From assembly GCA_003566675.1 (NCBI GenBank), contig PXCI01000068.1, positions 1-40,387 on the forward strand: a stretch of 40,387 nucleotides of DNA. The letters run 5' to 3'. The number at the start of each line of letters is the position of its first letter. Positions within the stretch are counted from its first letter, which is position 1. The position numbers and the translations under genes are program-made. The notes beneath the pieces are model-generated. The model was not told the DNA's origin, made no database searches, and saw only the letters and a list, made by a program, of their open reading frames with translations. Positions 33,221-39,556 of this stretch are shown piece by piece. The DNA is from Clostridia bacterium (GTDB lineage: Bacteria; Bacillota; Sulfobacillia; SLMV01).

Positions 33221-34891
33221 TCAATCGTCGAAGAAATCCAGTATCTCCACTCGGTTGCTGTCCACATCAATCAGAAGGGCAAACCACTGATCGTAAGGCG
33301 GCAGGTACGACAGCTCCTGCTGTAGCCTCTGCCTGCTGCCGTCGGGAAGGATCACCGTGAGGACAGCCAGAACCGTCTCCTCCGTCTCAGGCCCGAAGAA
33401 GAAAGGAGAGACCACGAAGCGTCCCCGGCTGAAATCCCATCCGTGAGAGACGTCGGTCTCCGGGTATTCGCGGAACACAAACCATTCCTCGCCGTCGTCA
33501 CCGTGGCCGATGTCCGGGGAATCTCCCAGGTCGAAGGCCGCTCCCAGGTAGTCGTACTCATCGGACCAGATCTCCAGGTCGAGATCCACGTCTCCTGCCC
33601 ATTCCAAGACCACGGCCAGATCACCCGCGCGGTGTTCATAGAACCCGGTGGTCGCACTCTCACTGCCGTCGGCAAAGGCGTCCAGCACCTCCGCGTCGTT
33701 TCGGTCGACATCAATCAGCACGGCGAACCACTGGTCATAGGGCGGCAAGTACGACAGCTCTTGCTGCAACTGCTGTGTGCTGCCATCGGGAAAGATCACC
33801 GTGAGGACAGCCTGGACCGTCTGCTCCGTCTCGGGCCCGAAGAAGAAAGGTGAGACCACAAAACGCCCCCGGCTGAAATCTCGGGGCAAGTCGTATTCAC
33901 GAGAAACACTCGTTTCAGGGTACTCGCGAAACACAAACCATTCCTCGCCTTGGTCGCCGCGACCGATGTCAGGAGAGTCTCCCAGGTCAAAAACGGCCCC
34001 CAGGTACTCGAACTCATCGGACCAGATCTCCAGGTCCAGGTCGAGATCTCCCTCCCACTGCAGTACCACGGCCAGTTCACCCACCTGGTGTTCATAGGCC
34101 CTTTCTGTGCCCCGACCGTCTCCGAATACCGCTGCCACCGTCTCCCCGGAACCGACTTGCTCAAGGAGCAGGTGGATCTGGTCCACGGGGACCGCGAAGT
34201 TCAAATTCTGGCCCCTTACATAAGTATAGGTGTTGACCCCAATGACCTCGCCCCACATGTTCAACAGGGGGCCTCCACTGCTGCCCTTGGAGATCGGGGT
34301 TGTGGTCTGAATCAGGTCGATTCCCATTTCCTCATCAAAGCGCAGCGCACTGACAATACCACTGGAGACGGTTCCCTCCAGCCCCTCGGGATTGCCCACA
34401 GCCATGACCTCTTCGCCCACCCGGACCACATTGACACCGACGCCCAGGGGCAATGCGTTCAAATTACCGCCGTCAATCTTCAGGACTGCCAGGTCCCATT
34501 TCTCACTGGCAGCAAGGACCGATACCACATCATAACGGCCACCGTTCAATTCAACATGGGCCCCATCCGATCCCTCCAGGACGTGAAAATTGGTGACAAC
34601 AACTCCCTCGGGCTGGATGACAAACCCGGAGCCAAAGGCAAAGGGAATCCCTCCTCGCGAAGCCTCTATGTAAGCTGTGGCGCCGCCAACCCTCTCAGAG
34701 AGCTCGGCGATCGTATAAGGCTCGCCAGAGTCCACCTCCTGCGGCGTCTCCGGTTGTGTCTCCGGCGGCGCCTCCTGTCCTTGTTCCACGGGACCGGCAC
34801 ACCCCCACAGAAACACGGCGATCAGGACAACGGGGACCAGCATCGCAAGTCTCAGGAACGATCTGGTGTTTGTCAATCTCAAACGCAACAC
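33221..34891 (-). CDS. HtrA-like serine protease lipoprotein with a duplicated C-terminal domain
   Basis: The 556-residue protein has a signal peptide ending at LWGC (Cys31), then a Glu/Pro/Thr-rich linker (35-56). A trypsin-like domain follows with the triad His103 (VVTNFHVLEG), Asp133 (KWDLAVLK) and Ser205 (SKGSSGGPLL). No PDZ domain follows. Instead two copies of a domain, about 150 residues apart, start at 266 and 418; each has LAVVL.W.GD.DLDLEIWSD, a YLGA.FDLGDSPDIG segment, EEWFVFREYPET, and SYLPPYDQWFA. The D-x-D-L-D-L-x-I/W pattern resembles YfaP/DUF2135-type beta sandwiches. The GTG at 34891 has AGGAGG 7 bases upstream; the ATG at 34897 is too close to it. It is likely an extracytoplasmic protease, anchored by lipid. 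Confidence 0.88.
   Translation of the reverse strand: MLRLRLTNTRSFLRLAMLVPVVLIAVFLWGCAGPVEQGQEAPPETQPETPQEVDSGEPYTIAELSERVGGATAYIEASRGGIPFAFGSGFVIQPEGVVVTNFHVLEGSDGAHVELNGGRYDVVSVLAASEKWDLAVLKIDGGNLNALPLGVGVNVVRVGEEVMAVGNPEGLEGTVSSGIVSALRFDEEMGIDLIQTTTPISKGSSGGPLLNMWGEVIGVNTYTYVRGQNLNFAVPVDQIHLLLEQVGSGETVAAVFGDGRGTERAYEHQVGELAVVLQWEGDLDLDLEIWSDEFEYLGAVFDLGDSPDIGRGDQGEEWFVFREYPETSVSREYDLPRDFSRGRFVVSPFFFGPETEQTVQAVLTVIFPDGSTQQLQQELSYLPPYDQWFAVLIDVDRNDAEVLDAFADGSESATTGFYEHRAGDLAVVLEWAGDVDLDLEIWSDEYDYLGAAFDLGDSPDIGHGDDGEEWFVFREYPETDVSHGWDFSRGRFVVSPFFFGPETEETVLAVLTVILPDGSRQRLQQELSYLPPYDQWFALLIDVDSNRVEILDFFDD
33224..34096 (-). repeat. Tandem intragenic repeat (two copies, 456-base period)
   Basis: The segments 33224-33640 and about 33692-34096 encode the two C-terminal domain copies of the protease. 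They keep long identical runs at DNA level, for instance TCGGACCAGATCTCCAGGTC occurs in both. The near-identity points to a recent duplication or ongoing gene conversion. Confidence 0.8.
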
Positions 34892-35111
34892 ACCCATTCC
34901 TCCTCACAAGTAATAGGCCGTATTATTGCCGGGTCATCAGCGGGCAGGCTCGTTCACATTGGCACACCCATACCCCATGCCACCGTATGACCACGAACCT
35001 GGAGTTCGATGCTCTAATCGCGGCAACAAGACGGCCCCTCGCCGTCTGGCGAACCGCGAATCGTTCCGCATCACCGGGAGGCTTCCCCACCCTCCGGGAG
35101 ATGCCTTTTTG

Positions 35112-36578: not shown

Positions 36579-36964
36579 TATGACCACCTCCTGAGAATTA
36601 CACTATCCTGAAAATCGGATAAAGCCAAGAGTATTCGTCAACACCGGGGGTCACCCCCGGTCCTCCGGGTAGAATCCGCCCACAGGTGACCAGCGTGTGA
36701 AGTGTGCGCAGACATGGCGTAGGCTCTCCTTGCGGTGGCCCCCCAGGGCACTATTTGCACTCACATAGGGGCTGCCAGCAGGACCTAATTCCTGTATGTT
36801 CTACCATCCCAGCAGTCTCCATTGATCGAGGGCTCGTTCGTTGCTTAACATGTACACATGCAACTGAGCTTTATGAATTTGATAACATGCTGCGATCTGG
36901 CACGCCGAAGAGGTCCCAATCTATGCAGTATCCACTTCGGCACCATAACCGGAGGGAGTATCGA
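36579..36964. other. Divergent intergenic region with a GC hairpin
   Basis: This region separates the amidohydrolase and the subtilisin-like gene and probably holds both promoters. ACCGGGGG (36643-36650) and CCCCCGGT (36654-36661) form a perfect 8-bp stem with a 3-base loop. CATGTACACATG near 36849-36860 is palindromic and could be a protein-binding site. No gene is supported here. An in-frame extension of the protease to 36704 has no ribosome binding site and odd composition. Confidence 0.45.
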
Positions 36965-39556
36965 ATGCATTTAGAAAAAGCCACAAGGTCAAAACTACTG
37001 TTGATTGGCCTGGTAGCGCTCTTTGCCCTTGCTCTGGGTATCTACAGCGCAAACGTTGACGCATCCATTCTCCACTCTAGCACCGAAGGTGACCAGAATT
37101 GGGCCTTGGTTCATCACTCTGGCAATCAGGCTGTTGACCCCGATGCCGGGTTGACCGTTGAAGTGAACTATGGCGATTTTAGTCTCGCCCACGGCACCGC
37201 GGAGCAGCTGCAGCAGGTAGAGGCCATCGGTTACTTCGTGCAACCGCTTCCCGACCGAACCCGAATCTATCTCAACCACGCATCCTTCAGTACCGAAGAG
37301 GGCGAACCCTCGGTTCCCTCGACACTGCGCACCGAACCCGCCAGCGGAGAATCCGCACACTATTTACTCCAGTTCATCGGTCCGATCAGGGACGCCTGGA
37401 TAGCCGCACTACAGGGTGAGGGGATCGAGTTCCTGGCGTACATCCCCAACTACACCTACGCTGTCCGCGCTACACCGGAACAGATGACTGCAGTACAGCA
37501 GCGTCCAGAGGTGCAGTGGCACGGCCTTTATCACGAGGGACTGCGCATGAGCCCCTCGGTACGTCAAACCCTGGCTGGCGGTGCCTCCGATTCAGATGCG
37601 GACCAGAAATACGTCATTGAGTTCTTCGGGAGCGAGTTCCCCGAGCAGTTTGAGACGCTGCTCCAGGCAGTCGGGTTGATGAGCGATGAGATCACCCGTC
37701 TTGCCGGGTACCCCGACTCGGAGCCGCGCTATCGCGCTGTTGTCGAGGCACCCCTTGCGGCCCTGTTCTCCATTATTTCCGATACAGGATTCTCATACGT
37801 CGCACCGGCCGCCTCGATGCAGCTGTTCAACAGCGAGGCCCGGGGAGTGATCAACAGCGATACAGCTCACTCTCACCAGTTGTCAGGCAAAGGCCAGACA
37901 GTGGCCGTCACCGACAGCGGCCTTGACCTCAACCACGAGATGTTCTTTGATCGGGACCAACCCGATGACTCCGGTGGTGGGGGATTTCCCGGTTATGATT
38001 TGCCCTGGTGGTGGGACCTATTGGACCAAACGGACACGGACCAGGACATCAATGCCTCCGAGCATCAGCCCTTCCCCTTCCCCTGGCCCTGGCCCGTCAC
38101 TCCAGACGGCGAACCCAGGGTTGGAGACGACCACCGCAAAGTCCAGGCCTTCATCGACCTGGCAGGTGACTCCACGAGCAACGACCCTATTGGCCACGGC
38201 ACCCACGTGGCCGGAACTATAGCCGGAAACACAGAGCCCTACGAAGCGTGGGCCAAGTACGATGGACATGCCTACGAGGCCCGGCTCGTCATCATCAAGG
38301 CCTTCAGTGCCGCCGGAGGCTGGGGGGCGGGTTTCGACTTCTACAGCGTGTTTGAAGAAGCTCACAATGCAGGAGCCAGGATCAACAATCAGAGCTGGGG
38401 CGGCCAGAGCAGCAGCATAGATGACGGATACGGCACAGTGGGACGAGACGCTGATCGTTTCATGGCCGATTATCCTTCCAACCTGCTTGTGATCGCATCC
38501 GGTAACTTCGGAGATGAGAGCGGACTCACCATCGCCACACCCGGTGATGCCAAGAACGTCCTCACCGTTGGAGCGGTAGACACTGACAATCCCGAAGGGG
38601 TCGCGTTCTTCTCATCGCGCGGACCCACAGCCGACGACCGTCTGAAGCCCGACCTGGTAGCCCCGGGGAACCCGATCATCTCGGCGGATGCAGACACGAC
38701 AGATAACTACGTCGGCCTCCAGGGTACCAGCATGTCAACCCCGACAGCAACGGGCGCAGCAGCCCTGGTCCGTCAGTATTACTCGGGCGGCTACTATCCC
38801 ACGGGAACTGCGAGCAACGCCAGTCTTGAACCCAGCGCAGCCCTGGTCAAGGCGACCCTGCTCGCCGGCGCCCGGGAGATCTCCGGGCCGGACTCGGACC
38901 GCGACAATGAGAACAAGTACCCCAACGCCTCCCAGGGATGGGGACTACTCGATCTCGACGGCTCACTGTACTGGCCTGGTGACGAGCGCGCCATGCTGGT
39001 CTGGGATGACCCCGCAAGCCTGAGTACCGGTGACGCGTGGGAGCAGGAGATCCTCATCGGGGACGGTTCCCAGTCTCTGCATCTGCACCTGGCCTGGACC
39101 GATCCCGCCCCCGCCCAGGGAGCACAACGCCACCTGGTCAATGACCTTAACCTGGAACTCGTCGCGCCAGACGGAACGATCTACCGCGGAAACAACCTCA
39201 CCGGTCTGAACCCTGGCTACACCGTCGCCGGTGGAGAGCCCGATTCCATCAACAACACCGAGGGAATCCGCATGCTGCCCGGCTACAGTACTCCCGGTAA
39301 CCTGCCCGAAGGGGCATACACGGTCCGTGTCGTGGGAGGAAATATCGCCGAAGGCCAGCAGTCCTTCGCCCTGGTCGTGCGCGGTGGGCTCACCGAGGAA
39401 TGGACAGAGCCTCCGGTAGACGATGAAGATGACAAAGATGAGATCGTTGTGACGATGACAATCGAAACCGATGCATGGGCTGACCTCGAAGATGAAATCA
39501 TGGCCTATGATGCGATTGAAGGTGTCGAGGTCAGAGTCGCCATGCCCGGTGAGTGA
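36965..39556 (+). CDS. Secreted subtilisin-like serine protease (S8 family)
   Basis: The 863-residue protein has a signal peptide (LLLIGLVALFALALGIYSA, about 11-29), a long N-terminal region (30-300) and an S8 catalytic domain. The triad is Asp317 (VTDSGLD), His411 (GHGTHVAG) and Ser589 (GTSMSTP), with the oxyanion Asn514 (ASGNFGDES). Between Asp and His lies an insertion rich in Trp, Pro and Asp (WWWDLLDQTD, PFPFPWPWPV). After the catalytic domain, residues about 675-800 form a beta-sandwich like those of kumamolysin/KP-43-type subtilases (HLHLAWTDPAP, LNLELVAPDGTIYRGNN, GAYTVRVVGG). The tail is acidic (DDEDDKDE). No cell-wall anchor is seen. The ATG at 36965 has GGAGGGAG 6 bases upstream. 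Confidence 0.92.
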   Translation: MHLEKATRSKLLLIGLVALFALALGIYSANVDASILHSSTEGDQNWALVHHSGNQAVDPDAGLTVEVNYGDFSLAHGTAEQLQQVEAIGYFVQPLPDRTRIYLNHASFSTEEGEPSVPSTLRTEPASGESAHYLLQFIGPIRDAWIAALQGEGIEFLAYIPNYTYAVRATPEQMTAVQQRPEVQWHGLYHEGLRMSPSVRQTLAGGASDSDADQKYVIEFFGSEFPEQFETLLQAVGLMSDEITRLAGYPDSEPRYRAVVEAPLAALFSIISDTGFSYVAPAASMQLFNSEARGVINSDTAHSHQLSGKGQTVAVTDSGLDLNHEMFFDRDQPDDSGGGGFPGYDLPWWWDLLDQTDTDQDINASEHQPFPFPWPWPVTPDGEPRVGDDHRKVQAFIDLAGDSTSNDPIGHGTHVAGTIAGNTEPYEAWAKYDGHAYEARLVIIKAFSAAGGWGAGFDFYSVFEEAHNAGARINNQSWGGQSSSIDDGYGTVGRDADRFMADYPSNLLVIASGNFGDESGLTIATPGDAKNVLTVGAVDTDNPEGVAFFSSRGPTADDRLKPDLVAPGNPIISADADTTDNYVGLQGTSMSTPTATGAAALVRQYYSGGYYPTGTASNASLEPSAALVKATLLAGAREISGPDSDRDNENKYPNASQGWGLLDLDGSLYWPGDERAMLVWDDPASLSTGDAWEQEILIGDGSQSLHLHLAWTDPAPAQGAQRHLVNDLNLELVAPDGTIYRGNNLTGLNPGYTVAGGEPDSINNTEGIRMLPGYSTPGNLPEGAYTVRVVGGNIAEGQQSFALVVRGGLTEEWTEPPVDDEDDKDEIVVTMTIETDAWADLEDEIMAYDAIEGVEVRVAMPGE

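Follow-up and report, generated by a model that had tools for sequence, protein, structure and literature searches.

A predicted exported HtrA-type serine protease with two YfaP-like domains where PDZ domains are usual

A gene on the reverse strand of the window (the whole 40,387-nucleotide stretch of DNA analysed here) encodes, as judged from its sequence, an exported HtrA-type serine protease which is devoid of a PDZ domain. The reading we favour, and consider reasonably probable, is that of an exported HtrA-type endopeptidase in which two tandem beta-sandwiches of the YfaP/PPC superfamily occupy the place where PDZ is usual and capture substrate or ligand; that these domains serve above all for targeting or binding we likewise regard as fairly likely. 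The protease would cleave extracytoplasmic proteins, while the beta-sandwich domains would deliver to its active site whatever they bind, be it substrate, a surface polymer or a partner. We infer such a binding role by analogy with PPC domains in secreted proteases, which are believed to bind ligands of these kinds (PMC2605481). The coordinates of all features are compiled in Table 1.

Table 1. Features of the protease gene and their positions in the window.
Feature	Position	Strand	Basis
Entire gene, encoding the export signal, the HtrA-type protease domain and both YfaP-like domains	33221..34897	(-)	ORF, sequence
Shine-Dalgarno AGGAGG	34899..34904	(-)	sequence
Hydrophobic N-terminus for export, with LWGC (C33) as its last residues, a borderline lipobox	34799..34897	(-)	sequence
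HtrA-type (S1C/Trypsin_2) protease domain, aa 63-250	34148..34711	(-)	PF13365, HTRA1 match, model
H105	34583-34585	(-)	triad, sequence
D135	34493-34495	(-)	triad, sequence
S207	34277-34279	(-)	triad, sequence
First YfaP-like beta-sandwich (copy 1), aa 268-410	33668..34096	(-)	sequence, profile
Second YfaP-like beta-sandwich (copy 2), aa 420-558	33224..33640	(-)	sequence, profile, AlphaFold2 model

Counted from the ATG, the open reading frame comprises 558 amino acids. A GTG at position 34891, two codons downstream, is probably the better start because the AGGAGG motif is located 7 nt from this codon but only 1 nt from the ATG, a spacing which favours the gene end given in a preliminary description of this DNA over the ATG. 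Within the export signal the full-length structure model shows a helix at residues 14 to 31. The tryptophan at position -2 with respect to Cys33 breaks the PROSITE-like lipobox pattern, which is matched by the relative at locus L011. The earlier designation of the protein as a “lipoprotease” is plausible, although the lipobox of the window protein is borderline and several relatives, which look like ordinary secreted proteins, have none. The protein probably remains attached to the membrane on its outer side.

The Trypsin_2 model of Pfam (PF13365) matches residues 89 to 221 with an E value of 3.8e-28, and the top NCBIfam model, degP_htrA_DO, matches partially. By sequence, the best PDB relatives are HTRA1 (7.9e-30) and DegP-type proteases, and the structure model superimposes on the HTRA1 protease domain with an rmsd of about 2 Å (TM 0.83 to 0.87; Foldseek). 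The active serine, Ser207, resides in a GSSGGPL motif and is, together with His105 and Asp135, invariant in all eight family members. The protein therefore has the chymotrypsin-fold protease domain with His-Asp-Ser triad which is one hallmark of HtrA/Deg (S1C) proteases, as had been described before, and lacks another, namely at least one C-terminal PDZ domain; a further hallmark of these proteases is assembly into trimers or higher oligomers, and the full-length model of the window protein is that of a monomer. Neither in Pfam nor in NCBIfam does any PDZ model match the window protein at E≤1, which bears out its earlier description as PDZ-less; the classical HtrA of the same genome (on contig C299), which served as a positive control, does match PDZ by HMM.

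No Pfam or NCBIfam model recognises either C-terminal domain, and the comparison of single domain sequences with Pfam, NCBIfam, PHROGs and the PDB, as well as that of the domain profile with the PDB, yielded nothing convincing. A family profile (A5) built from 17 domain copies, in contrast, matches a YfaP-type profile with a probability of 86% (hhalign; E 4.7e-6, 31% identity over 90 of 138 columns), the latter profile comprising five sequences only, which are YfaP of E. coli and Citrobacter, VIT proteins of Deinococcus and Aureibacter and one Novosphingobium ORF. The score of 38.7 is far above the maximum of 19.0 reached in 100 column shuffles and the 11.5 of the reversed control. Trp14, Asp19, Asp21, Asp43, Gly47 and Glu52 of A5 align with Trp10, Asp16, Asp18, Asp45, Gly49 and Glu53 of the YfaP set, and the four acidic residues thereby fall on positions which are invariant in that set. 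These shared DxD...D...E positions may constitute a metal or structural site. With respect to PF09906, one of the 17 copies matches weakly (E 0.095) and below the gathering score, while no match to this model is present in the window's own genome or in 200 genomes of the host phylum. The term “YfaP-like” used in the preliminary description consequently holds at the superfamily level, by profile homology, but not as a PF09906 match at gathering score, and we file the domain as a YfaP/PPC-superfamily beta-sandwich outside PF09906 as curated. A5 itself matches PPC with a probability of 28% over 31 columns covering the DLDL core only, and the Pfam model PF04151 matches neither the window protein nor the domain family, whereas the YfaP set matches a PPC-type profile with a probability of 92.5%. 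Of three weak profile matches, one (L020) proved to be a subtilase carrying PPC-type domains.

For copy 2, AlphaFold2 gives a confident model (pLDDT 86.6, pTM 0.84) which is all-beta except for one short helical turn. Searching the PDB with this domain model by Foldseek gave a best E of 0.038 and no TM above about 0.5, and nothing at E≤0.001 was retrieved from either the PDB or BFVD. The top BFVD fold match (TM 0.49) is annotated “tellurium resistant like”, and this match, as well as a TerD-trypsin fusion on record (PMC2605481), would be in line with a TerD-type calcium-binding domain. We regard such an identity as extremely improbable, since the profile comparison with TerD (PF02342) gives a probability of 0.85% and a score of 17.2, which lies within the range of shuffled profiles. 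A PDZ variant, which was looked for by HMM, was rejected as well, the repeat showing no support for it.

The two copies lie 152 residues apart from start to start, as had been noted before, and share 112 of 139 amino acids (81%), with the edge of copy 1 lying about 24 nt outside the position 33692 proposed originally. The long DNA identity between them, also noticed earlier, amounts to 80% and is interrupted by one four-codon indel; ungapped matches of 212 nt at 82% and of 210 nt at 79% indicate that the likeness is not due to chance. With a dN of 0.11, a dS of 0.88 and a dN/dS ratio of 0.13 between the copies (Nei-Gojobori), both are under purifying selection and their synonymous sites are well diverged. 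To call the duplication recent, as was done initially, is overstated in view of a dS of about 0.9, yet the pair is the most alike of seven tandem pairs, the amino acid identity between copies being 50 to 54% in L010, L012 and L014 and 26 to 32% in L011, L016 and L017. In the domain tree, the backbone of which is weakly supported, each window copy has the other as its closest neighbour (path 0.25 versus 0.87 to L009), while the first and second copies of L010, L012 and L014 group by position. This fits either a later duplication in the window lineage or a homogenisation of the copies, two scenarios which are not separable because of the weak backbone.

HtrA proteases are generally regulated by C-terminal domains. 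A regulatory function of the repeats, which would then assume the allosteric role of PDZ, sense ligand, metal or salinity and switch the HtrA active site on, would agree with this general mode of control, with the location of the domains immediately behind the protease, where PDZ would be expected, and with the conserved acidic positions that could bind a metal. We nevertheless consider it rather unlikely, as the copy number varies between one (L009) and two, the second copies of L011, L016 and L017 are strongly diverged, and the full-length monomer model (pTM 0.46) does not reveal a confident interdomain arrangement. The preferred reading, a substrate or ligand binder in place of PDZ as put forward in the preliminary description, is consistent with the tree of protease domains. 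In this tree the eight family proteases are monophyletic (support 99/94; 98% of 200 bootstrap trees). When L004 and L050 are added, all ten PDZ-less proteases are placed on one side of a branch supported by 99/96 and 29 HtrA-type proteases on the opposite side, with L004 and L050 on long branches and the inner order of the ten being unsure. Two of these 29 (L002 and L064) were checked by HMM and both contain PDZ; in most of the others about 100 residues follow the protease domain. Because of this partition the family seems to have its origin in a branch already devoid of PDZ and not in a direct exchange of that domain. L004, encoded in the window's own genome (contig C219, 14.3-14.9 kb), carries SLH before the protease and has GSSGS instead of GSSGG at the active serine; L050 (genome G156, contig C8) is a PDZ-less Cu_amine_oxidN1-trypsin-MORN protein with unusual accessory domains.

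Among 399 genomes of the host phylum searched, one further genome harbours a relative. A scan of GTDB r220 contigs, which uses short exact patterns and may thus miss distant members, revealed nine loci, L011 being the contig of that further genome; searches of plasmid and virus collections for the domain yielded no relative. The protease is combined with two domains in L010, L011, L012, L014, L016 and L017, as in the window, and with a single one in L009, the nearest relative of the window protein by its protease domain (66%), so that the family comprises eight proteases with one or two YfaP-like domains. L015 is a fragment. L013 (2-1099), which shares its Atribacterota MAG with L009, encodes an exported protein having one domain and no protease, whose N-terminal ~200 amino acids match no Pfam family. 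The loci are labelled as Bacillota, Atribacterota and Spirochaetota, labels which come from MAGs and may include binning errors. Eight of the nine loci outside the window's genome carry CSSed or B1Sed isolate names, which denote soda-lake sediment MAGs from about pH 10 (PMC6146748, PMC6704655), the ninth being S22.Bin020; the domain family hence appears nearly restricted to soda-lake genomes. The theoretical pI is 4.05 for the window protein and ranges from 4.05 to 4.70 across the family, a very acidic composition which would suit a protein exported in a haloalkaline habitat or alkaline brine.

This extreme acidity and the predominance of soda-lake sediment genomes would also suit passive domains, that is, an acidic beta-sandwich bulk which stabilises, spaces or aids export in alkaline brine and has no specific ligand. 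We deem this quite unlikely, since the conservation of aromatic and acidic positions (e.g. PPYDQWF and DLDLEIW) and the purifying selection exceed the needs of a spacer, and the domain is also present without a protease in L013. A more far-reaching scenario, in which a niche-specific HtrA branch has spread horizontally among unrelated soda-lake bacteria and the new domain, in the regulatory place of PDZ, senses metal, salinity or cell-surface polymer, is in our view improbable and would have to be regarded as speculative.

The neighbours of the window gene encode an HD-domain protein, an amidohydrolase (upstream, same strand) and a large subtilase. The latter (36704-39556, plus strand), a 950-residue S8 protease with long N- and C-terminal extensions, lies two genes away from the HtrA-like protease. 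No neighbourhood is conserved across the family loci, so that the gene context is of little help in judging the function. A conserved operon with an amidohydrolase was considered and rejected, since the enzymes of this type encoded close to the window gene and to L010 and L017 belong to different subfamilies. An upstream isoaspartyl-dipeptidase gene is common to L010 and L014, and L016 and L017 have downstream genes in common. In L010 (835-4655) and L014 (1624-5455) a peptide-permease-like gene, the isoaspartyl dipeptidase and a gamma-glutamyl hydrolase-like gene (identified in L010) precede the protease, an order which suggests peptide use in that subgroup.

A beta-sandwich in place of PDZ is not new in kind, as proteins of the trypsin-PPC-PPC and TerD-trypsin types were already reported in 2008 (PMC2605481); beyond this analogy, the exact domain has, in the literature searched, not been described as a standard part of HtrA proteases. 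The domain family seems to be undescribed in that literature, as do its relationship to YfaP and its near confinement to genomes from soda lakes, and no publication dealing with DUF2135 together with a protease was found. An undescribed domain family thus joins the modules that can take the place of PDZ in proteases of the HtrA type, and DUF2135/YfaP gains a context beside an enzyme. Single-copy L009, the double-copy window protein and the diverged L011, L016 and L017 form a set for testing domain replacement and copy number. If the restriction to alkaline lakes holds, the gene is a candidate for niche adaptation.

YfaP/DUF2135 is, to our knowledge, a family without known function. With E. coli YfaP and the VIT-domain proteins of Deinococcus and Aureibacter the window domain shares the W, DxDL, D, G and E positions; it differs in being below PF09906 detection and in its C-terminal stretch (PPYDQWFALLVDVD), and YfaP, unlike the window protein, is not a protease. 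The protease fold and triad are common to the HtrA/Deg proteins DegP, DegQ, DegS and HTRA1 (S1C), the identity to the HTRA1 protease domain being about 40% over some 190 aligned residues, whereas the window protein has GSSGGPL instead of the usual GNSGGPL and C-terminal YfaP-like domains instead of PDZ. The SLH-trypsin protein of the same genome (L004) and the Cu_amine_oxidN1-trypsin-MORN protein (L050) are PDZ-less and possess related protease domains, but their accessory domains are different and their exact placing is unsure. In the trypsin-PPC-PPC and trypsin-PPC-SCP proteins of Hahella chejuensis (PMC2605481), as in the window protein, a trypsin-like protease is followed by one or two beta-sandwiches and not by PDZ; theirs, in contrast, are PF04151 PPC domains, to which the window domain shows only the short match to the DLDL core mentioned above.
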